Positions 815 through 60,320 of a stretch of DNA of 64,000 bases are shown here, in pieces. The stretch's first letter is position 1; each line of letters opens with the position of its first letter. The notes beneath the pieces are model-generated. The model saw only the letters and a list, made by a program, of their open reading frames with translations, made no database searches and had not been told where the DNA came from. The translations under genes and the position numbers were made by a program. This DNA is from Actinoplanes octamycinicus (GTDB lineage Bacteria; Actinomycetota; Actinomycetes; Mycobacteriales; Micromonosporaceae): positions 8,785,501 through 8,849,500 of the forward strand of contig NZ_JACHNB010000001.1 of NCBI RefSeq assembly GCF_014205225.1. The letters are read 5' to 3'.

Positions 815-3016
815 TCAGGCGGCTCGGCGGTAGGCGCGGTCGGCAGAGGCCGGGGCGGGCGCCGGACGCGCGTGGCCGGTGGCGGCTTCCAGCTGGTCCA
901 GCGGCATCACGTCGGCCCGGAGGGCGGCGGCGAGCTTGCCGGCCAGGCCCAGGCGGATCGGGCCGGACTCGCAGTCGACGACGACCGTGGCCACGCCGGA
1001 CAGGGCCGGGGCCAGCAGCAGCGGGTCCGGGCCGCTGGTGGCGCGGCCGTCGGTGACCACGATCAGCAGTGGGCGGCGCCGGGGGTCGCGGCGGCGTTCG
1101 GTGGCGATGGTGCGGGCGGCGGCGCGCAGGCCGGCGGCGAGCGGGGTCCGGCCACCGGTGCGCAGGGCGGCCAGCCGCATCACGCCGACCTCGTGGCTGG
1201 ACGTCGGCGGCAGCACCACCTCGGCGTCCGCGCCCCGGAAGGTGATCATCCCGATCCGGTCGCGGCGCTGGTAGGCGTCCCGCAGCAGGGACAACACCGC
1301 GGTCTTGACCAGCGTCATCCGCTTGCGGGCGGCCATCGAGCCGGACGCGTCGACGACGAAGAGCACCAGGTTCGCCTCGCGGCCGACGTGGATCGCCTCG
1401 CGCAGGTCCCGCGGCTCGACCCGGAACGCTCCTCGCGCCGACACGAGCTCACGGCCCCGCGCCACCTCCCCGGTCCCCGGGACAGCACGGTCGCCACGGA
1501 CAGTAGCTCGGCCGGCGTCCAGGGCGCCGCGGTGCAGGGCGGCTCGGAGGGTGGCGGGCAGGTGCGGGGCGCCGGCGAGTTTGCCGAGCGGCTTGCGGGC
1601 GCCGACGACCCGGCCGCGGCGGGCGTAGGCCGGGGAACGTTTGCCGGTGTGGCCGCCGTCGCCGCGCGCGGTGATCCGGAGCGTGCGCGGGCGGAAGGCG
1701 GCGCCGGCCTGGGCGGGCGCGGCGGCCTGGCCACCGCCGCGCGGCGCGTCACCCGCCGGCGGCGGGTCGGCGGGCGTGGACGGCGAGGTGTCGGCGGGCG
1801 TCGCGTCGGCCTGCGGACTGCCGCCCGGGCCACCGGGCGGAGGACCACCGGCCGGGCCACCGGGGCCGCCGTCGGGACCACCGTCCGGCCCGCGATCCGG
1901 GCCGCCGGGACCGCCGTCCGGGTCGTCGTCCGGGTGCCGGTCGTCCGGCCCCTCGCCCGCGGCGTCGTCCCGGGACTGACCGGCGAGGTCCTCCCGGGCC
2001 TGGCGCTCGGCCTCCTCGAGGGCCTGGTCCAGCTTCTCCTCGTCGGTGCCGGGCGGGTCGAGCGGATCGGTGCGGCGCCGGTGCGGCAGGGCCAGCCGGG
2101 CCGCGTCGCGGACGTCGTCGGCGGTGACCCGGTCGCGGCCGTGCCAGGCGGCCAGCGCGACCGCGCAGCGGGCCACCACGATGTCGGCGCGCATGCCGTC
2201 GACCCCGTAGGCCAGGCAGACCCGGGCGATCCGGTCCAGCTCGGCGTCCGGCAGCACGACCGTGGGCAGGATGGCGCGGGCGGCCGCGATCCGGGCGGCG
2301 TACTCGCGCTCGTCGGCGACGAACCGGGCGGCGAAAGCGGCCGGATCCAGCTCGTAGGCGAGCCGGCGGCGGACCACCTCGGCGCGCTGGGTGGCGTCGC
2401 GCGGGGCGGCCACCGTGACCACCAGGCCGAACCGGTCGACCAGCTGCGGGCGGGGCTCGCCCTCCTCCGGGTTCATCGTGCCGACCAGCAGGAACCGGGC
2501 CGCGTGCTTGACCGAGACACCGTCGCGCTCGACGTGGGCGCGGCCCATCGCGGCGGCGTCCAGGAGCAGGTCGACCAGGTGGTCCGGGAGCAGGTTGACC
2601 TCGTCGACGTAGAGCACGCCGCGGTGCGCGGCGGCGAGCAGGCCGGGCTCGTAGGCCTTGACGCCGTCGGCCAGGGCCCGCTGGATGTCGAGGGTCCCGA
2701 CCACCCGGTCCTCGGTGGCGCCGACCGGCAGCTCGACCAGGGTGGCCGGGCGGTGCGCGGCGGGGGTGTCGGCGGCGTGCGGGCCGTCCGGGCAGTCCGG
2801 GTCCGGGGCGGCCGGGTCGCAGGCGAAGCGGCACCCGCGGACCACCGTGACCGGCGGGAGCAGGGCGGCCAGGGCGCGGACCACGGTGCTCTTGGCGGTG
2901 CCCTTCTCGCCGCGGACCAGCACCCCGCCCACGGCCGGCGAGACCGAGGTCAGCAGGAGCGCGAGGCGCAGGTCGTCCAGGCCGACCACGGCCGAGAACG
3001 GGTACGGAGTTGTCAC
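815..3016 (-). CDS. Magnesium/cobalt chelatase AAA ATPase-VWA fusion (putative cobaltochelatase subunit)
   Basis: A 733-residue ChlI/ChlD-type fusion, thought to energise metal insertion into corrinoids with a CobN-type partner. Walker A GEKGTAKST lies at 36-44 and Walker B VLYVDEVNLL at 134-143. A long linker rich in Asp, Pro and Gly follows, then a C-terminal von Willebrand A domain whose metal site DASGSM is near residue 555. I chose the GTG at 3016 because GGGAGGG lies 8 nt upstream and the AAA domain begins at once; a longer open frame would run into the cobalamin riboswitch. It is followed by cobO. The cobalt role is inferred from this context; the fold itself is clear. Confidence 0.88.
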   Translation of the reverse strand: MTTPYPFSAVVGLDDLRLALLLTSVSPAVGGVLVRGEKGTAKSTVVRALAALLPPVTVVRGCRFACDPAAPDPDCPDGPHAADTPAAHRPATLVELPVGATEDRVVGTLDIQRALADGVKAYEPGLLAAAHRGVLYVDEVNLLPDHLVDLLLDAAAMGRAHVERDGVSVKHAARFLLVGTMNPEEGEPRPQLVDRFGLVVTVAAPRDATQRAEVVRRRLAYELDPAAFAARFVADEREYAARIAAARAILPTVVLPDAELDRIARVCLAYGVDGMRADIVVARCAVALAAWHGRDRVTADDVRDAARLALPHRRRTDPLDPPGTDEEKLDQALEEAERQAREDLAGQSRDDAAGEGPDDRHPDDDPDGGPGGPDRGPDGGPDGGPGGPAGGPPPGGPGGSPQADATPADTSPSTPADPPPAGDAPRGGGQAAAPAQAGAAFRPRTLRITARGDGGHTGKRSPAYARRGRVVGARKPLGKLAGAPHLPATLRAALHRGALDAGRATVRGDRAVPGTGEVARGRELVSARGAFRVEPRDLREAIHVGREANLVLFVVDASGSMAARKRMTLVKTAVLSLLRDAYQRRDRIGMITFRGADAEVVLPPTSSHEVGVMRLAALRTGGRTPLAAGLRAAARTIATERRRDPRRRPLLIVVTDGRATSGPDPLLLAPALSGVATVVVDCESGPIRLGLAGKLAAALRADVMPLDQLEAATGHARPAPAPASADRAYRRAA

Positions 3017-3069
3017 AGGGTGTTCCCTCCCGGCGGGTGTCCACGCCCGCGCGTCGGTCGTCACGAGCG

Positions 3070-3250
3070 GCCGGAGTCTCCTGACTCCCGGATCGCCGTT
3101 CCCCGCTCGCCTTCCGGCCTGCCGGCCGTGGCGTGCTGTCTCGTCAGCGGGTCGCTCCCCGGTCACAGTGGCGGGACCGTCCCGGATTCACACCGGGTTC
3201 CTCCGCAACCGCTCGGGCCCCATCCTTCCGACCGACAAGCCGCCCCGTCA
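3070..3250 (-). promoter_or_regulatory. Cobalamin riboswitch
   Basis: Read on the minus strand, the leader of the chelatase gene contains the B12-element core: GGTGTGAATCCGGGAC, GGTCCCGCCACTGTGACC, and the 3' conserved GGGAGTCAGGAGACTCC (about 3071-3090). Order and spacing match the cobalamin riboswitch, which lowers expression of B12 synthesis and transport genes when adenosylcobalamin is plentiful. The element ends about 55-60 nt before the GTG start. Outer boundaries are approximate. Confidence 0.95.
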
Positions 3251-3260
3251 AACAACCCCC

Positions 3261-3310
3261 ACGAGATCACACCCCGCGGCCGAGCAACGCCACGAGATCA
3301 CACCCCGCGG
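3261..3310. repeat. Pair of 19-bp direct repeats
   Basis: ACGAGATCACACCCCGCGG occurs exactly at 3261-3279 and 3292-3310, 31 bp apart, between the riboswitch and the glyoxalase-fold gene. It could be a twin binding site or a chance duplication; nothing else marks its role. Confidence 0.7.
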
Positions 3311-3661
3311 TCAGATCGAGACCAGGCAGAACACGTGCCCGTCCGGATCGGTGAGCACCGCCTGCCGCTCGCCCCACGGCTGGTCCTCCGGCGCGTCGAT
3401 CACGGCGGCTCCCGCCTTTTCGGCCGCCGCGGTCACCGCGTCGACGTCGTCCACCCGGAAACTGATCGCCACCCCGGCCAGCCCCGCGGTCGGCGGCCGC
3501 TGGTGCAACATGATCTCGGTGGTGGTGCCGGGAACGGTCAGCGTCGAGAAATCCCCGAACGCGGACTTCTCGGTGAGACCGAGCACATCCCGGTACAACG
3601 CCCGGCTCCGGTCCAGGTCCGCTACCGACACGATAAGGCGCTGAAGTCCGATTACGGTCAT
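3311..3661 (-). CDS. VOC (glyoxalase/bleomycin-resistance fold) protein
   Basis: A 116-residue single-domain member of the vicinal oxygen chelate superfamily, whose members are metal-dependent lyases, dioxygenases or ligand-binding resistance proteins. The N-terminal stretch with SVADLDRSRALYRDVLGL and the C-terminal DPDGHVFCLV are typical paired beta-alpha-beta-beta-beta modules. The ATG at 3661 begins MTVIGLQRL, the normal N-terminus of the family; an upstream extension of 15 residues has no family character. It stands alone, downstream of no obvious operon. The substrate cannot be told from sequence. Confidence 0.85.
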   Translation of the reverse strand: MTVIGLQRLIVSVADLDRSRALYRDVLGLTEKSAFGDFSTLTVPGTTTEIMLHQRPPTAGLAGVAISFRVDDVDAVTAAAEKAGAAVIDAPEDQPWGERQAVLTDPDGHVFCLVSI

Positions 3662-7140: not shown

Positions 7141-9477
7141 GTGCGCTCCGTGCTCCCGCCCGCCATCGCCCGCCGCCAATGGCAGTTCATGGCCGTCATC
7201 GGGGTCCTCGCGACCGCGTTGTACGCGGCCTACTCGTCCTCGAACCTCGCCGCGGTGAGCCTGGTGGTGCTCTGCGTGCTCACCGTGGCGGCCTGCTTCG
7301 TCGGGCCGCGCCGGTGGGGTGCCGAGCCGCCGGTGGCCTGGCTACTGATGGCGCTCGCGGCGCTGCTCTTCCTGGTCGGGCTGCTGATCCGGCCGACGGT
7401 CACCAACCAGCCGATGCCGCTGCCGCTGCTCGCCGACGTGGCCACCTTCAGCGGTTACCTGCTGCTCGGCACGTTCCTGTTCATGCTGCTGCGCCGCCGG
7501 CAGAGCCTGGAGCGGCACGCCGTGCTGGACGGCCTGATCGTCTGCCTGGCCGCCGGGCTGACCAGCACGCTGCTGCTGGCCGCGCCGGCCGCCGCGATCC
7601 CCGGCCGGCCCGCGCTGCTCTCCATCATCCAGGGCACCTACCCGCTCTTCGACATCGTGCTGGCGCTCCTGGTGATCAACCTGGCGTTCACCACCAAGAC
7701 CTGGCCGGTCAGCATGATCGCGCTGCTGGTGATGATGGTCGGGCTGTTCGTCGGCGACACCGCGTACGCGATCGTCGGGGTGAACGGCCAGATCTACGCC
7801 TCGCCGCTGCTCAACGTCCCGTACGTGCCGGCCTTCGCGGCGCTCGGGGTGGCCGCCCTGCACCCGTCGGTGACCGAGATGAGCCGCGCCGACCGGCTGC
7901 CCGTACAGGCCTGGTCCTGGCAGCGGCTGGCGGTGCTGCTGCCCGCGCTGTTCCTGCCGTTCGCGCTGCTGCTGACCACCGGCACCAGCGCCGCCTCGCA
8001 CCGGATGCTGATCGCGGTGGCCGGCGCCCTGATGATCCTGCTGCTGCTGGCCCGGGCGATCTCCGCGGTGCAGGCCCAGGTCGCCGCCCAGCTGCACTCC
8101 GAGCACCAGGCCACGCACGACCCGCTCACCTCGCTGCCCAACCGGCAGTCCATCTCCGGCGAGATCGAGCGGCTGGTCACCGCGGTCGACTCGCACGGCC
8201 CGCAGCGGGTCTGGGTCTACATGCTCGACCTGGACGGCTTCAAGTGGGTGAACGACTCGTGGGGTCACGACACCGGCGACCAGCTGGTGATCGAGGTCGG
8301 CCGCCGGTTGCGGGCCCAGGTCCCGGAGACGGTGCCGGTGGCCCGGGTCGGCGGCGACGAGTTCCTGCTCGCCTTCGTCGGCGACAAGGCCGGCGCGCTC
8401 CGGCTGGTGGACGACATCCGGGGCTGCTTCGCCCGCCCGTTCACGGTCCGCGACACCGAGGTGGTGATCAGCGCGTCGATCGGCATCGCGCACTCCAGCG
8501 GCGACGCGATGCGCTCCGCGGTCACCGCCGAGGCGCTGATGCGCGACGCGGACACCGCGATGTACCGGGCCAAGGCCGAGGGGCCGGGCCGGTCCACCAT
8601 CTTCGACACCTCGATGCACGACCAGGCCCGGGAGCGCATCGAGCTGGAGGTGGCGCTCCGCCAGGCGCTCAGCGACGACCAGCTCTACGTGGTCTACCAG
8701 CCGATCGTGCGGCTGGAGACCGGGATGCCGGTGGGCGCCGAGGCGCTGGTCCGCTGGGAGCACCCGACCCGCGGCCAGATCCCGCCGATGCTGTTCATCC
8801 CGATCGCCGAGGACTCCGGCCTGATCTCGCAGATCGGCACGTTCGTCCGCAACGAGGCGCTGCGCCAGCTCGGCGTGTGGCGCTCGCAGGGCGTCGTCTC
8901 GGAGAGCTTCTACCTGTCGATCAACGTGTCGCCGCGCCAGCTCAGCGAGCCGGACCTGCCGCTGGTCTTCTCCGGCGAGCTGTTCAAGTACGGCGTCCCG
9001 GCGCAGTGCGTGGCACTGGAGATGACCGAGTCGGTGATGGTGGACGGCTCCAGCGTGACCGGCCGGGTCCTCCACGAGCTGCGCCAGCTCGGCGCGAAAC
9101 TGCTGGTCGACGACTTCGGCACGGGCTTCTCCGCGCTCGGCTACCTGCGCCGGTTCCCGGTCACCGGGGTCAAGATCGACCGGTCCTTCGTGATCGGGCT
9201 GGGCAAGAACGTCGAGGACGACGAGATCGTCCGCGCGGTGGTCGCGATGAGCCACGCGCTGGGCCTGAGCGTGATCGCCGAGGGCGTCGAGACGGTGCTG
9301 CAGCGCGAGGCGCTCTACCACGTCGGCGTGGTGAACGGGCAGGGCTGGCTGTGGGGCAAGGCGGTGTCGGCGGTGGAGTTCGCCGAGCGCTGGCACCTGT
9401 CGGCGGCGCTGCCGGAGATCCCGCTGCCGGTCGCCGCGGTGACCAGCTCCGGGCGGCACCGCCGCCCGGAGGAGTAG
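7141..9477 (+). CDS. Membrane GGDEF-EAL cyclic-di-GMP turnover protein
   Basis: A 778-residue protein with about eight hydrophobic helices in residues 15-310, then a GGDEF domain (intact signature 404-408) and an EAL domain (EAL at 534-536). The EAL part also has DDFGTGFS and EGVET. Both catalytic signatures look intact, so it may make and hydrolyse c-di-GMP, though in such fusions one activity often dominates. The terminal QGWLWGKA replaces the usual QGYLFGKP. The membrane region probably senses a signal. The GTG start at 7141 follows GGGAGGA with 7 nt spacing. It converges on the next gene. Confidence 0.93.
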   Translation: MRSVLPPAIARRQWQFMAVIGVLATALYAAYSSSNLAAVSLVVLCVLTVAACFVGPRRWGAEPPVAWLLMALAALLFLVGLLIRPTVTNQPMPLPLLADVATFSGYLLLGTFLFMLLRRRQSLERHAVLDGLIVCLAAGLTSTLLLAAPAAAIPGRPALLSIIQGTYPLFDIVLALLVINLAFTTKTWPVSMIALLVMMVGLFVGDTAYAIVGVNGQIYASPLLNVPYVPAFAALGVAALHPSVTEMSRADRLPVQAWSWQRLAVLLPALFLPFALLLTTGTSAASHRMLIAVAGALMILLLLARAISAVQAQVAAQLHSEHQATHDPLTSLPNRQSISGEIERLVTAVDSHGPQRVWVYMLDLDGFKWVNDSWGHDTGDQLVIEVGRRLRAQVPETVPVARVGGDEFLLAFVGDKAGALRLVDDIRGCFARPFTVRDTEVVISASIGIAHSSGDAMRSAVTAEALMRDADTAMYRAKAEGPGRSTIFDTSMHDQARERIELEVALRQALSDDQLYVVYQPIVRLETGMPVGAEALVRWEHPTRGQIPPMLFIPIAEDSGLISQIGTFVRNEALRQLGVWRSQGVVSESFYLSINVSPRQLSEPDLPLVFSGELFKYGVPAQCVALEMTESVMVDGSSVTGRVLHELRQLGAKLLVDDFGTGFSALGYLRRFPVTGVKIDRSFVIGLGKNVEDDEIVRAVVAMSHALGLSVIAEGVETVLQREALYHVGVVNGQGWLWGKAVSAVEFAERWHLSAALPEIPLPVAAVTSSGRHRRPEE

Positions 9478-11185: not shown

Positions 11186-12898
11186 ATGGCTTCGCGAACG
11201 CCGGCCGCTCGCGGCGAGGCGGCGACGCCACCGGTCCAGGTGGCCACGCCGCAGTTACTCCGGGCGGCGCTCGACGCCGCCACCGAGGCGATGCTGCTGT
11301 GCGCCGCCGCGGACGACACCATCCTGCTGGCCAACGCGGCTGCCCAGGCCCTGGTGCCCGGCCTGCGGCCCGGCGAGACCCTGACCGCGGCGCCGCTCCC
11401 GGAGCTGGCCGCGGCCGCGGCGGACGGCGCCGACAGCTTCCGGTCCGAGCACCAGGACCATTTTCTGTACGGGTTGCGCCGCCGCCTCGACGACGACCAC
11501 TACGCGTGGTACCTGCGGGACCGCACCGACGAGCACGAGCGCACCGCGGCGCTGGAGGCCGAGCGGGCCCGGGCCGCGTTCCTGGCCGACGCCGGCCGGC
11601 ACCTGTCCGCCTCGCTGCACCTGCGCCGGGTCCGGCGCACCGTCGCCGAGCTGGCCGCCGCCCACCTGGCCGACGCCGCGGTGGTGATCCTGCCCCCGAT
11701 CAAGCGGCAGAGCTCCTGGACCAGGCTGCTGCCCGGCCACCCGGTGGAGGAGGGCACCCTGCCCGAGCGCAGCCTCACCGAGGTGCCCGGCCTGCGCGAG
11801 GTGATCGACGGCTTCCCGCCGATCCCGAGCCGCTGGCTCGACCCGGGCCAGGCGCCCGGCTGGCTCTTCCCGGCCGCGCTCGGTCCGATCGGCGCGCTGC
11901 TGGTCACCCCGCTGCCCGGCAACGCCGAGCCGGCCGGCGCGCTGATCCTGGCCCGCACCGGCGCACGCGCCGCGTTCAGCGAGCAGGACGAGGCCCTGGT
12001 CCGGGTGTTCGCGATCCGGGCCGGCGCCGCCCTGGCCGCGGCCGGCCTCTACCGCGCCCAGGTGGACACCACCGCGGTGCTGCAGGCCGACCTGCTGCCC
12101 CCGGAGCTGCCCCCGACCGAGGGATTCGAGCTGGCCGGCTCCTACCAGGCGGCGTTCGAGGCGCTGCAGGTCGGCGGCGACTTCTACGAGGTGTTCGGCC
12201 CGTCCGCGGCCGGCTCGGACACGTTGGTCGCGCTCGGCGACGTGTGCGGCACCGGCCCGGAGGCGGCGGTGCTGACCGGCAAGGTGCGCCAGACGCTGCG
12301 CGCGCTGCGCCTGGTGCGGGCCGGGCCGGAGACCATGCTGCGGGTGCTCAACCAGGCCATGCTGGAGTCCAGCCGCAAGCAGCGCTTCGTCACCCTGGTG
12401 GTCGGCTCGATCACCCGGGCCGAGCACGGCCGGGTGCGGATCGAGCTGGTCAGCGGCGGCCACCCGCCGCCGATGGTGCTGCGCGCCGACGGCACGGTCG
12501 AGGAGGTGCCGGTCAGCGGGACGCTGATCGGCGTGATGCCGGAGACGGTCGTGCATCCGGCCACCGTCGAGCTGGCCCCCGGCGAGCTGTGCCTGCTCTA
12601 CAGCGACGGCCTGACCGAGGCGCGCGGCGGGCCGACCGGCCACGACCAGTTCGGCGAGGCCCGGCTCCGGCAGTCGCTGTCCTCGTGTGCCGGGCTGCCC
12701 GGCGCGGTCACCCTGGAGAGGCTGCGTCAGCTGGTCTCCGACTGGGTACATGGAGGCACCACAGACGACATCGCGATGCTGACGGTCCGGGCGCCGGCGC
12801 GACCACCGCTCAGCTTGCGCGGCGGCGGGGCGCCGAACCAGTCTCCTTACCTGGCCGCCACCCGCCGCGCCGACCGGAGGGCCCGCCCGCGCGTATGA
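11186..12898 (+). CDS. PAS/GAF-domain PP2C (SpoIIE-type) phosphatase
   Basis: A 570-residue cytoplasmic signalling protein. A PAS-like domain (about 22-120), a GAF-like domain (about 130-295) and a SpoIIE/RsbU-type PP2C domain (about 310-545) follow in order. The phosphatase part has LQVGGDFYEVF, ALGDVCGTGPEAA and, near the end, GGTTDDIAMLTV, which supply the metal-binding Asp residues. Such enzymes dephosphorylate anti-sigma antagonist (STAS) proteins in partner switching. ATG 11186 follows GGGAGGAACG. Its stop overlaps the start of the B12-binding gene (ATGA), so the two are translationally coupled and probably act together. Confidence 0.92.
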   Translation: MASRTPAARGEAATPPVQVATPQLLRAALDAATEAMLLCAAADDTILLANAAAQALVPGLRPGETLTAAPLPELAAAAADGADSFRSEHQDHFLYGLRRRLDDDHYAWYLRDRTDEHERTAALEAERARAAFLADAGRHLSASLHLRRVRRTVAELAAAHLADAAVVILPPIKRQSSWTRLLPGHPVEEGTLPERSLTEVPGLREVIDGFPPIPSRWLDPGQAPGWLFPAALGPIGALLVTPLPGNAEPAGALILARTGARAAFSEQDEALVRVFAIRAGAALAAAGLYRAQVDTTAVLQADLLPPELPPTEGFELAGSYQAAFEALQVGGDFYEVFGPSAAGSDTLVALGDVCGTGPEAAVLTGKVRQTLRALRLVRAGPETMLRVLNQAMLESSRKQRFVTLVVGSITRAEHGRVRIELVSGGHPPPMVLRADGTVEEVPVSGTLIGVMPETVVHPATVELAPGELCLLYSDGLTEARGGPTGHDQFGEARLRQSLSSCAGLPGAVTLERLRQLVSDWVHGGTTDDIAMLTVRAPARPPLSLRGGGAPNQSPYLAATRRADRRARPRV

Positions 12899-13935
12899 TC
12901 ACCAGCCACTCGTCCCGCGCCCTCGACGACCCCGGCCTCTACCAGGAATACCTCGACCTGGTCGGGGACGGCGACGAGTTCGGCGCCACCGAGATCGCCC
13001 GGTCACTGCTCGACGACGGCGTCCCGGCCCAGCGGATCATGGTCGATCTGATCGGCGGCACCCAGGCCCGGGTCGGCGAGCTGTGGGCGGCGAACGAGTG
13101 GTCGGTGGCCCGCGAGCACGCCGCGACGGCGGTCAACGAGCGGGTGCTGGCCGCGCTCACCGTCGGCCGGAACACCCCGCCCCGGCGCGGCCGGATCACC
13201 CTGGCCTGCGTGGACGGCGAGTGGCACGGGCTGCCCGCACGGATCCTGGCCGAGCTGCTGCGGATGGACGGCTGGCGGGTCGACTTCCTCGGCGCCAGCG
13301 TCCCCGGCCCGCACCTGATCACCCACCTGCACCAGACCGGCCCGGACGCGGTCGCGCTGAGCTGCATGATCCCGACCCGGCTGCCGCGCGCCCACGCCGC
13401 GATCACCGCCTGCCGGGCGGCCGGCGTCCCGGTCATCGCCGGTGGCCGGGGCATGGGTCCCGGCGGCCGCTACGCCGAGCGGCTCGGCGCCGACGCCTGG
13501 GCCGGCACCGCCGAGGAGGCGGTGATCCGGCTGGCCACCGACTGGCCGCCGCCGCTGCCCCCGGAGTTCCCCACCGAGTTCCTGGGCGACGAGGAGTACA
13601 CCCACCTGGTCCGCTCCCGGCCCCAGCTGATCGAGACCGCGATGCAGCGGCTGGCCGCGGCCTACCCGGCGGTGCACCACTACAACGAGCAGCAGCGCGA
13701 GGCCACCCTGGAGGACTTCGGCCACATCGCCGACTTCCTGGCCGCCTCGCTCTACATCAACGAGCCCCAGGTCTTCCGCGACTTCACCACGTGGACCGCG
13801 GGCGTCCTGACCGCCCGCAAGGTCCCGGTCGCCGCCCTCCGCACCGGCCTGCGCCTGGTCCGCGACCAGCTGATCGACTTCCCCACCGCCATCGCCACCC
13901 TGGACCTGGCGATCGCCGACCTCCCCCAGTCCTGA
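12895..13935 (+). CDS. B12-binding sensor protein with CarH-type Wx9EH motif
   Basis: A 346-residue protein with a helical B12-cap domain (about 15-95), a Rossmann B12-binding domain (about 99-215) and an extra helical C-terminal domain (about 230-346). W64 and E74-H75 make the Wx9EH motif that marks adenosylcobalamin light receptors of the CarH type. His111 in GEWHGLP is at the lower-ligand position, but the usual Gly of DxHxxG is not conserved. There is no MerR DNA-binding domain, so output must go through another protein, presumably the coupled phosphatase it overlaps by 4 bp. The light-sensing role is inference. Confidence 0.85.
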   Translation: MITSHSSRALDDPGLYQEYLDLVGDGDEFGATEIARSLLDDGVPAQRIMVDLIGGTQARVGELWAANEWSVAREHAATAVNERVLAALTVGRNTPPRRGRITLACVDGEWHGLPARILAELLRMDGWRVDFLGASVPGPHLITHLHQTGPDAVALSCMIPTRLPRAHAAITACRAAGVPVIAGGRGMGPGGRYAERLGADAWAGTAEEAVIRLATDWPPPLPPEFPTEFLGDEEYTHLVRSRPQLIETAMQRLAAAYPAVHHYNEQQREATLEDFGHIADFLAASLYINEPQVFRDFTTWTAGVLTARKVPVAALRTGLRLVRDQLIDFPTAIATLDLAIADLPQS

Positions 13936-14000
13936 CCCGGTCACGTCCAGCGCCAGCCGCGACGCCCGTCACTGCCCACCGTCCCACCCGCGGCCCCCGT

Positions 14001-14323
14001 CCCCGGCTGGCCCTCCCGGGTGTCTCAACCTCCCTGAAACACCCATGAGAAGCAGCCGGCCCACGGTCCCGGCTGGCCCTCACGGGTGTCTCAACCTCCC
14101 TGAAACACCCGCGAGAGGCAGCCGGCCCACGGTCCCGGCTGGCCCTCACGGGTGTCTCAACCTCCCTGAAACACCCATGAGAAGCAGCCGGCCCCCGGTC
14201 CCGGCTGGCCCTCACGGGTGTCTCAACCTCCCTGAAACACCCATGAGAAGCAGCCGGCCCCCGGTCCCGGCTGGCCCTCACGGGTGTCTCAACCTCCCTG
14301 AAACACCCGTGAGAGGCAGCCGG
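14001..14323. repeat. Five tandem 66-bp palindromic repeats (palindrome family, locus 2)
   Basis: GTGTCTCAACCTCCCTGAAAC recurs with starts at 14020, 14086, 14152, 14218 and 14284, an exact 66-bp period. Each unit is an imperfect inverted repeat: arms with CCGGCTGG and CACGGGTGTCTCA around a 7-nt loop ACCTCCC. The region 13936-14629 has no convincing gene; open frames here arise because 66 is a multiple of 3. Confidence 0.95.
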
Positions 14324-30848: not shown

Positions 30849-30950
30849 TTTCCGCCCTCTCCGCGAGGGGTCAGGCGTGCTGTCCGGCGGGCGCGAGGAA
30901 CGCCCCAGCACGCCGAGCGGAGAGGGTTGGGTGAGAAGTCTTCGTTCCGC

Positions 30951-31328
30951 CGGCGCAAGGCGCGCAGCAGCCCAGGCCACGTCGCGCGTCACGGCCCGGC
31001 GGGCTGGGCCTCAAAGGTGCCTCAAGAGTGGTGAGACACCCCTGAGCGCCAGCCGGACCGGCGCAAGGCGCGCAGCGGTCCGGGCCACGTCGCGCGTCGC
31101 GGGTTGGCGGGCTGGGCCCCAAGGGTGCCTCAAGGGCGGTGAAACACCCTTGAGAGCCAGCCGGACCGGCGCGAGGCGCGCAGCGGTCCGGGCCACGACG
31201 CGCGTCGCGGGTTGGCGGGCTGGGCCCCAAAGGTGCCTCAACGGTGGTGAGACACCCCTGAGCGCCAGCCGGACCGGCGCAAGGCGCGCAGCGGTCCGGG
31301 CCACGACGCGCGTCGCGGGTTGACGGCT
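30951..31328. repeat. 108-bp tandem repeats with embedded palindromes (palindrome family, locus 3)
   Basis: CGGCGCAAGG starts recur at 30951, 31059, 31167 and 31275, and GTGCCTCAA at 31017, 31125 and 31233: an exact 108-bp period, about 3.5 units. Each unit contains an imperfect palindrome (GGTGCCTCA ... TGAGACACCCC ... CCAGCCGG) and a CGACGCGCGTCGCGGGTT block shared with locus 1 and locus 4 flanks. The first IS110 element begins about 40 bp beyond the array. Confidence 0.93.
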
Positions 31329-31357
31329 GGGTGCTACGCGTGGGCTGACGGTGAGAT

Positions 31358-58940: not shown

Positions 58941-59260
58941 CGGCTGGCTTCCAGGGGTGCCTCAAGACACTTGAGGCACCCCTGGAAGCCAGCCGACAAC
59001 CGCACGACACGCCACCCCCGACCGCCTTGCGAGTCCAGCTGGTCGACACGGGTGTCTCAAGACGCTTGAAGCACCCCTGGAAGCCAGCCGACAACCGCGC
59101 GACGCGCCACCGCCACCACCCCCGACCGCCCTGCGAGTCCGGCTGGTCGACACGGGTGTCTCAAGACGCCTGAAGCACCCCTGGAAACCAGCCGACAATC
59201 GCACGACGCGCCACCGCCACCACCCCCGACCGCCTTGCGGGTTGAGCTGGTCGGCAGGGG
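58941..59260. repeat. Palindrome family, locus 4 (three copies plus a degenerate one)
   Basis: The first copy is perfect: 25-bp arms (58941-58965 and 58971-58995) with loop GACAC. GTGTCTCAAGACGCTTGAAG and a variant follow at 59052 and 59156, and a degenerate fourth near 59240. Spacers carry CGACAACCGCGCGACGCGCC, shared with loci 1 and 3. Confidence 0.93.
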
Positions 59261-59362
59261 TGTGTGCGAGGCCTCAAGGCACGTGGCACCGGGCCGGAAC
59301 ACGGTCTCCGTGGAGCAGGCCGCCCCTTGCTGACCAGCCGCGACCTGGTAGCGCGCTGCGGA

Positions 59363-59582: not shown

Positions 59583-60320
59583 TCAGGTGACGGTCAGGGC
59601 GACGGCGGTGGCGTTGTCGTGGCCGCCGGCCTGGAGGGTGGCGTCCAGCAGGGACTGGACGACGGTGCGGGGTGGGACGGCGGCCATGACATGGGCGAGC
59701 TGCTGGTAGGAGAGCTGGCCGGAGACGCCGTCGGTGCAGAGCAGCAGGCGGTCGCCGGGGTGCAGGGGGACGTCGAGGATGTCCGGGTCCGGCTGGTCGG
59801 GGTGGCCCGTGTAGCGGGTCAGGCGGTACCCGTCGGCTTCGGCTCGGGGGTCGGTGGCGGCGTACCAGCCGTGGGTGAGGCCGAGCCAGGCGATCGTGTG
59901 GTCGACGGTGAGCAGTTCGAGCAGGCCGGCGCGGAGGCGGTAGGCGCGGGAGTCGCCGAGCTGCACGATCCGGGCGGCGGCGTCGTCGCCCGGGACGCCG
60001 GCCAGCGCGGTCAGCGTGCAACCGGTGAGGTCGCGGAGGGTGCGGGCCTTCTGCCGTACGCGGGAATGGGCCTCCTGGACAGCGGCCCGCAGCGCGGCCG
60101 GGTCCGGACCGGCGAACCGGGTCGCGAAGGTCTCCACCGCGATGCGGCCGGCGGCCGCGCTCCCCTCCCCCGCGCCCATCCCGTCGGCGACGATCGCCAG
60201 CGGCCGGTCGGCGTCCAGGTGCAGCACGTCGTAGTTGCGGTCGTAGCGATGCCCGGTCACGCTGCCGGCCGCCGCGGTCACGACCCGGCCGCCGAACCGC
60301 CACACCGCCTCGCCGATCAC
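59583..60320 (-). CDS. PP2C-like protein phosphatase
   Basis: A 245-residue phosphatase. Metal and active-site motifs: RNYDVLHLDADRPLAIVADGMG with Asp46, GCTLTALAG, VQLGDSRAYRLRAG, LLLCTDGVSGQL and GGHDNATAVALTV. The DGMGG glycine is Ala50, a small change. The GTG start at 60320 overlaps the stop of the membrane PH-type protein gene (GTGA), so it is the last gene of the MarR-PH-PP2C operon. Target unknown. Confidence 0.88.
   Translation of the reverse strand: MIGEAVWRFGGRVVTAAAGSVTGHRYDRNYDVLHLDADRPLAIVADGMGAGEGSAAAGRIAVETFATRFAGPDPAALRAAVQEAHSRVRQKARTLRDLTGCTLTALAGVPGDDAAARIVQLGDSRAYRLRAGLLELLTVDHTIAWLGLTHGWYAATDPRAEADGYRLTRYTGHPDQPDPDILDVPLHPGDRLLLCTDGVSGQLSYQQLAHVMAAVPPRTVVQSLLDATLQAGGHDNATAVALTVT

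Follow-up and report, generated by a model that had tools for sequence, protein, structure and literature searches.

We analysed a 64,000-nucleotide stretch of DNA from Actinoplanes octamycinicus (contig NZ_JACHNB010000001.1, positions 8,785,501 to 8,849,500; hereafter the window), which is part of a single-contig genome of 10.28 Mb. The plus strand of the window carries two overlapping genes. The first (11186..12898) encodes a 570-amino-acid protein that Pfam, AlphaFold2 and fold searches predict to be a PAS-GAF-PPM serine/threonine phosphatase of the SpoIIE/RsbU type of PP2C enzymes. The second (12895..13935) encodes a 346-amino-acid B12-binding protein, a predicted photocobilin whose closest named relatives are from Actinoplanes. 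Within a shared ATGA (12895..12898), the photocobilin ATG (12895-12897) shares bases with the phosphatase TGA (12896-12898), and translational coupling of the two genes is likely. An earlier interpretation made from the DNA letters and their open reading frames (ORFs), the sequence-only reading, had described this overlap and had proposed that a CarH-type light-sensor signature is coupled to a PP2C phosphatase, with partner switching as the likely output. The sequences support this proposal.

The B12-binding protein as a predicted photocobilin

Among proteins of solved structure, phmmer ranks SasPcob (8J2W and 8J2X) as the closest relative of the B12-binding protein, with E-values of about 1e-87 over residues 17/18-333, followed by AbPcob (8J2Y, 7.5e-46) and by Thermus CarH entries at approximately 1e-6 to 1e-7. 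SasPcob is from Saccharothrix syringae and AbDPcob/AbPcob are from Acidimicrobiaceae, and the photocobilins were published in 2024 (PMC10979010; we draw on parts of this and of the other sources given by PMC number). A structural model of the protein, with a mean predicted local distance difference test (pLDDT) score of 89.7, gives a similar ranking in Foldseek, where 8J2W, 8J2X and 8J2Y come first at template modelling (TM) scores of 0.83-0.87. SasPcob itself aligns at TM 0.86-0.87 with 45-46% identity, and CarH-type domains align by fold to the B12 module only. Because of this full-length match in sequence and fold to SasPcob and AbPcob, we assign the protein as a photocobilin, composed of a CarH-like B12 module and a globin-like biliverdin domain, with predicted binding of both adenosylcobalamin (AdoCbl) and biliverdin.

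The B12 module includes a four-helix bundle (12931..13161; Pfam B12-binding_2 at 3e-13, and the model) carrying W64 and E74-H75, and a Rossmann-type B12-binding domain (13186..13539; Pfam B12-binding at 7.5e-18) carrying the motif E109-x-H111, in which His111 is the expected lower cobalt ligand. As the sequence-only reading had stated, W64 and E74-H75 stand in Wx9EH spacing, with nine residues from W to E, and together with His111 they align with W61, E71-H72 and His108 of SasPcob. The helical C-terminal domain, which the same reading had left unassigned, corresponds to the biliverdin-binding globin-like (photoglobin) domain of photocobilins, with the SasPcob match extending over residues 18-333. 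This domain (13591..13920, from the alignment and the model helices) contains the expected biliverdin pocket with the residues D274 and W300, which align with the SasPcob biliverdin contacts Asp270 and Trp296.

At the local composition, Wx9EH is expected by chance approximately 0.006 times per 346 residues. Eight of the nine B12-domain matches in the genome were inspected, including the window copy, and the motif is found in none of the seven other loci (1.5 kb on each side, with two frames truncated at the locus boundary). A chance motif was rejected on these grounds. A CarH-type repressor was rejected as well. Specifically, Pfam detects no DNA-binding domain in the protein, in agreement with the sequence-only reading, a MerR/HTH domain is lacking, and the NCBIfam model for CarH (NF052513) scores 41.2 bits against a cut-off of 400. 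An ordinary metabolic corrinoid carrier would share the common B12 fold, and relatives of the protein are publicly named 'methanogenic corrinoid protein MtbC1'. There are also weak NCBIfam matches to MtgC, MtbC and pyl_corrinoid. However, these scores fall far under the respective cut-offs (40.8 versus 310, 31.2 versus 350 and 26.2 versus 215.3 bits), and the full-length photocobilin match, the Wx9EH signature and the globin-like domain all argue against a carrier, which we rejected as extremely improbable.

The window gene is the single full-length photocobilin match in its genome, where two further matches span part of the B12 module (E-values of 5e-4 and 4e-3). The genome also has two heme oxygenase matches, and their products could be the source of biliverdin.

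Domain organization of the phosphatase

Pfam detects the SpoIIE domain of the upstream protein at 2.4e-41 (142 bits versus a cut-off of 25). The PAS and GAF domains that the sequence-only reading had also named score slightly under the Pfam cut-offs (GAF, 3.6e-4, 21.5 bits versus 22.4; PAS_8 over residues 24-57, 8e-3, 16.5 bits versus 21.8), and the AlphaFold2 model has alpha/beta domains at both of these places. The model has a mean pLDDT of 88.4 and a predicted TM score of 0.62, such that the arrangement of the domains is uncertain. Its order is a PAS-like domain (residues 22-112; 11249..11521), a helix (residues 114-140), a GAF-like domain (residues 146-258; 11621..11959), a long helix that links the GAF-like domain to the phosphatase domain (residues 266-301; 11981..12088) and the PPM phosphatase domain (residues 315-535; 12128..12790). 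As in other members of the family, Asp332, Asp352, Asp474, Asp527 and Asp528 are expected to be the metal-binding residues. These five aspartates are unchanged in the best PP2C match of all 92 paired loci described below. In the fold search, the closest matches are PP2C domains, namely those of Rv1364c (3KE6, ranked first), RssB, SiaA and SpoIIE. The gene product is thus predicted to be a PPM/SpoIIE (RsbU-type) phosphatase, in which the long helix might be the linker on which partner proteins act, by analogy with those of RsbU and RsbP (PMC12143880).

Conservation of the gene pair

Relatives of the photocobilin were collected from 394 genomes of the same class, of which 65 (the A. octamycinicus genome included) have a match at E≤1e-20 when the top five candidates per genome are scored. 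A scan of further genomes (genome_contigs) contributed 35 loci, mostly from Actinoplanes and near genera, and a total of 104 loci (L012-L115) were inspected. A locus was counted as paired if a PP2C match is located on the same strand, no more than 600 bp upstream of the photocobilin. Such a match is present in 92 of the 104 loci, including all 29 of the closest class loci, all 35 from the genome_contigs scan and 28 of the remaining 40 class loci. The sequence-only reading had named a lack of conserved adjacency as evidence that would count against it, and the adjacency is conserved in these relatives. In 50 of the first 64 relatives, the two genes share bases at the start and stop codons, and in 39 of these the overlap is exactly four bases (start codons were picked by script). 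The A. octamycinicus genome itself provides a control: it has 27 SpoIIE matches, and each of its eight other B12-domain matches is separated from the closest of these by 61-659 kb. Given this spacing and the frequency of pairing, chance adjacency was rejected.

A reverse search with the phosphatase (E≤1e-55, a threshold of our own setting, with the top three candidates per genome scored) yielded matches in 44 of the 394 class genomes, every one of which belongs to the 65 photocobilin genomes. When positions are compared, 45 of the 47 phosphatase copies lie directly next to a photocobilin. The PP2C partner is more distant or absent in the remaining 21 photocobilin genomes. Within the genus, photocobilin matches at E≤1e-40 (some partial or broken) are present in 62 of 67 genomes and phosphatase matches at E≤1e-90 in 61. 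At these thresholds, the phosphatase match is missing as well from the five genomes that lack a photocobilin match, and one genome (G762) has a distant photocobilin and no close phosphatase.

In 12 loci, no PP2C match was seen within the 600 bp upstream of the photocobilin relative. These are L093 (at a contig edge), L094, L096-L099, L106, L108 (a decayed copy), L111, L112, L114 and L115. L094 adjoins a GGDEF protein (GGDEF at 5e-24), as does L098 from a reading of its ORF. In L108 (approximately 2672-3558), the GAF part of a phosphatase continues directly into the second half of a photocobilin. The distant relatives L112, L114 and L115 adjoin an apparent alcohol dehydrogenase and a metallo-hydrolase, as judged from their ORFs.

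Photocobilins elsewhere are fused to or located beside GGDEF or EAL proteins (AbDPcob, L094, L147 and L149), which is consistent with an alternative wherein the photocobilin targets another enzyme and the phosphatase is merely a co-transcribed neighbour. The window offers a candidate for such a target, a GGDEF-EAL protein encoded at 7141-9477, whose gene shows conserved synteny in L043, L048 and L057. However, this gene is separated from the phosphatase gene by two genes and 1.7 kb, whereas the phosphatase is the close upstream neighbour of the photocobilin in 92 of the 104 loci and is jointly absent with it. A different target enzyme therefore seems very unlikely.

Residue conservation in relatives

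Residues were counted in 88 complete photocobilins that are paired with a PP2C gene; the 12 loci without PP2C and seven with fragments or partial matches were left out, with L108 belonging to both groups. Across these 88 proteins, the columns are on average 53% identical to the query. E74 and H75 are kept in all 88, W64, H111 and W300 in 87 each, E109 in 86 and D274 in 79. Among 11 relatives without PP2C, W64, E74 and W300 are kept in all 11, H111 in 10, H75 in 9 and D274 in 5. The B12 signature is also kept in these relatives, and thus it is a feature of photocobilins and not of the pairing. Across all aligned sequences, Asp is found at the D274 column in 87 of 108, and the left-out loci L101, L105 and L107 have no Asp at this position. 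One locus (L092) is paired with PP2C, yet both W64 and H111 are replaced by Arg, and its photocobilin is possibly B12-free. H75 is changed in L112 and L115, and H111 in L115; from these sequences, some of L112, L114 and L115 may no longer be light sensors.

These counts bear on the possibility that the protein is a sensor of cobalamin supply or form, in which AdoCbl loading alone would switch the phosphatase and photolysis would be incidental in soil. The cyclase activity of AbDPcob is indeed lowered by AdoCbl binding alone (PMC10979010), and a cobalamin riboswitch is located 8 kb from the pair. However, the W and EH residues that read the adenosyl group and the biliverdin-domain Trp, which are not obviously needed for supply sensing, are near-invariant in the paired copies, and the riboswitch precedes a different gene on the opposite strand. 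We consider supply sensing improbable.

STAS genes and a candidate target

A STAS-like match on the same strand and within 500 bp downstream of the photocobilin is present in 33 of the 104 loci, distributed as 23 of the 29 closest class loci, one of the 35 genome_contigs loci and nine of the 40 remaining class loci. Pfam confirmed STAS or STAS_2 in all five of the sequences scanned. The motif D-S-x-G is found in all nine STAS-like sequences used as queries, and presumably it marks the place of the SpoIIAA phosphoserine. In L014 and L016, two tandem photocobilin genes lie between the PP2C and STAS genes, such that the STAS-like gene comes after the second photocobilin. The STAS gene is also present beside the pair in two loci (L038 and L039) from the window's own family. 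Catenuloplanes japonicus (L069) is a further relative that has it next to the pair.

There is no STAS gene beside the pair in the window, and therefore a STAS target in this organism must be encoded elsewhere. The genome has 30 STAS matches. The best of these to the Catenuloplanes STAS gene (62.5 bits), at most a possible ortholog, is at L138, near position 6106454 of C1. At L138, a kinase-like gene, as judged by reading, is followed by the STAS gene. On this sequence match, the L138 STAS protein is a candidate for an unlinked target of the phosphatase.

Proposed mechanism

Our preferred interpretation, to which we assign a probability of roughly 0.62, is that the two genes form a light-responsive unit in which the photocobilin acts in trans on the co-translated phosphatase, which in turn acts on a STAS/anti-sigma switch. 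In the dark, AdoCbl would be bound base-off with His111 on the cobalt, its adenosyl group stacked on W64 and held by E74-H75, and non-covalent biliverdin would be bound alongside in the C-terminal globin-like domain. Illumination with green light, or with red light by way of biliverdin, would then cleave the Co-C bond and change the conformation of the protein. Such a response has been reported for SasPcob and AbDPcob, where light breaks the Co-C bond and alters conformation (PMC10979010). The switched photocobilin would act in trans on the PAS-GAF-linker part of the PPM phosphatase, comparable to the action of RsbQ on RsbP and of RsbT on RsbU. The light state with both chromophores would most likely activate the phosphatase, which would dephosphorylate a STAS anti-anti-sigma protein and thereby free a sigma factor.

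The expected site and direction of control derive from two sets of published observations. First, light-state holo SasPcob activates the diguanylate cyclase domain of AbDPcob when this domain is added in trans (PMC10979010). Second, PPM phosphatases with this type of architecture are controlled by partner proteins: RsbT has been shown to switch RsbU through the helix that precedes the PPM domain, and RsbQ is known to activate RsbP, for which the same helix mode has been predicted (PMC12143880).

Several points weigh against this interpretation. The window contains no STAS match, and 34 of the 35 genome_contigs loci likewise have none in the 500 bp downstream (the downstream sequence is shorter than this in two of them). 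The best STAS match in the genome provides no more than a modest lead (62.5 versus 48.3 bits). Two of the 47 phosphatase copies occur without a photocobilin; one (L135) adjoins a STAS gene and the other (L136) adjoins another SpoIIE gene. The co-occurrence counts ignore relatedness and use self-set thresholds and only the top candidates per genome. In addition, the PAS and GAF domains of the phosphatase itself could sense some other signal. Finally, in other classes of the phylum, PP2C is seen in none of 11 photocobilin-like loci (L145-L152, L154, L156 and L157) within flanks of approximately 1.5 kb, or less at two contig edges. Of these loci, one has GGDEF in its vicinity and another has EAL (L147 and L149), and in a further locus (L162), which is related in the B12 module only, a PP2C match lies approximately 0.9 kb downstream. 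Partnership with PP2C therefore appears to be characteristic of this class. Elsewhere, the partners seem to be of the diguanylate-cyclase type, consistent with AbDPcob.

Biliverdin-free SasPcob shows the reverse effect on the cyclase in trans, with activation by the dark form and inhibition by the light form (PMC10979010). By extension, the same gene pair might operate with the opposite sign, wherein the phosphatase is activated, or held in its assembled state, by the dark form of the photocobilin with AdoCbl bound and is released or inhibited upon illumination. D274 corresponds to the key biliverdin contact, and its loss from nine of the 88 complete paired photocobilins is compatible with such a scheme. 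However, both D274 and W300 are kept in the window protein and heme oxygenase genes are present in the genome. These features make the holo form, which is activating in its light state, more likely here, and we regard the opposite sign as unlikely.

Extending the light-activated two-gene unit beyond the window, many stand-alone photocobilins of this class might be dedicated trans light switches for a single lineage of PAS-GAF-PPM phosphatases, derived from an ancestral phosphatase-photocobilin-STAS operon. Each would be an activator resembling RsbQ or RsbT that reads green and red light through B12 and biliverdin and gates a sigma-factor partner switch. We offer this broader view tentatively, at slightly less than even odds.

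Other features of the window

A cobalamin riboswitch (3074-3203, minus strand, 70 bits) precedes a Mg-chelatase/VWA-type gene (815-3166), and together they are perhaps the start of a cobalamin operon that runs out of the window. The sequence-only reading had placed B12 synthesis genes with a riboswitch in the window; the riboswitch is present and, of the synthesis genes, the Mg-chelatase/VWA-type gene was the one checked. A meaningful link between this riboswitch-associated gene and the phosphatase-photocobilin pair was rejected on the basis of distance (8 kb) and strand.

Directly 3ˊ of the photocobilin gene (13991-14323), a 66-bp repeat occurs five times (95% matches), and each unit carries a GGGTGT...ACACCC inverted repeat. 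Units of similar appearance are located at 30950-31331 and 58955-59263. These could be a family of hairpin repeats or stacked terminators. A second SpoIIE match in the window (approximately 59589-59807, minus strand) is weak and partial, at 23.4 bits over family positions 106-191.

Comparison with known systems

Photocobilins are already known, and the sequence-only reading, which knew of no described system with this pair, must be corrected in one respect. From an interaction-network analysis, the 2024 paper proposes that SasPcob may interact in Saccharothrix with STAS, SpoIIE and PP2C phosphatases, and it calls the function of stand-alone photocobilins less clear (PMC10979010). Published trans control, as described in the parts of that source used here, concerns only a cyclase domain taken from another photocobilin (PMC10979010). 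SignatureFinder lists output domains of light-responsive B12 domains, and PP2C is not among them in the portion of the article drawn on (PMC11796333). Photoglobins have been placed among the bilin-binding globins (PMC10151467). An assay of a photocobilin-PP2C pair was not found in the literature searched; a 2022 photoglobin study that lies outside this search (doi 10.1016/j.csbj.2021.12.022) may list PP2C neighbours. To this background we add the near-obligate pairing across the class, the joint absence of both genes and the finding that many relatives have a STAS gene next to the pair. The pairing names a likely natural partner enzyme for stand-alone photocobilins and, in many relatives, a likely adjacent STAS substrate. 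If the proposed mechanism is correct, soil actinomycetes would set sigma-factor activity by B12 and bilin photochemistry.

The window protein most resembles SasPcob, with which it shares domain order, fold, the W/EH/ExH signature and a stand-alone architecture, and its D274 and W300 correspond to Asp270 and Trp296. AbDPcob differs in that a diguanylate cyclase is fused to the photoreceptor and His replaces the Asp, whereas the window protein stands alone and has the Asp. AbPcob, with His at this position, binds biliverdin poorly (PMC10979010). CarH/LitR proteins such as Thermus CarH (5C8D) share the B12 module, the W-x9-EH motif and the lower His, and they match part of the fold (TM about 0.5 by query length). 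However, the window protein lacks their MerR/HTH domain and has an extra globin-like domain.

On the phosphatase side, the RsbQ-RsbP and RsbT-RsbU systems of Bacillus subtilis likewise consist of a sensor-linker-PPM phosphatase and a distinct partner protein, and in those systems the phosphatase feeds a STAS/anti-sigma switch (PMC12143880). RsbQ is an alpha/beta hydrolase, whereas the partner in the window is a predicted B12-bilin photoreceptor that would act as the activator. Rv1364c, OsaC and other actinobacterial PAS/GAF-PPM proteins resemble the window phosphatase in PPM fold and domain style, and in Rv1364c anti-sigma and anti-anti-sigma domains are fused to the phosphatase (PMC12143880). 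No such domains are fused to the window phosphatase or encoded next to it, and its gene is joined instead to one for a photoreceptor.

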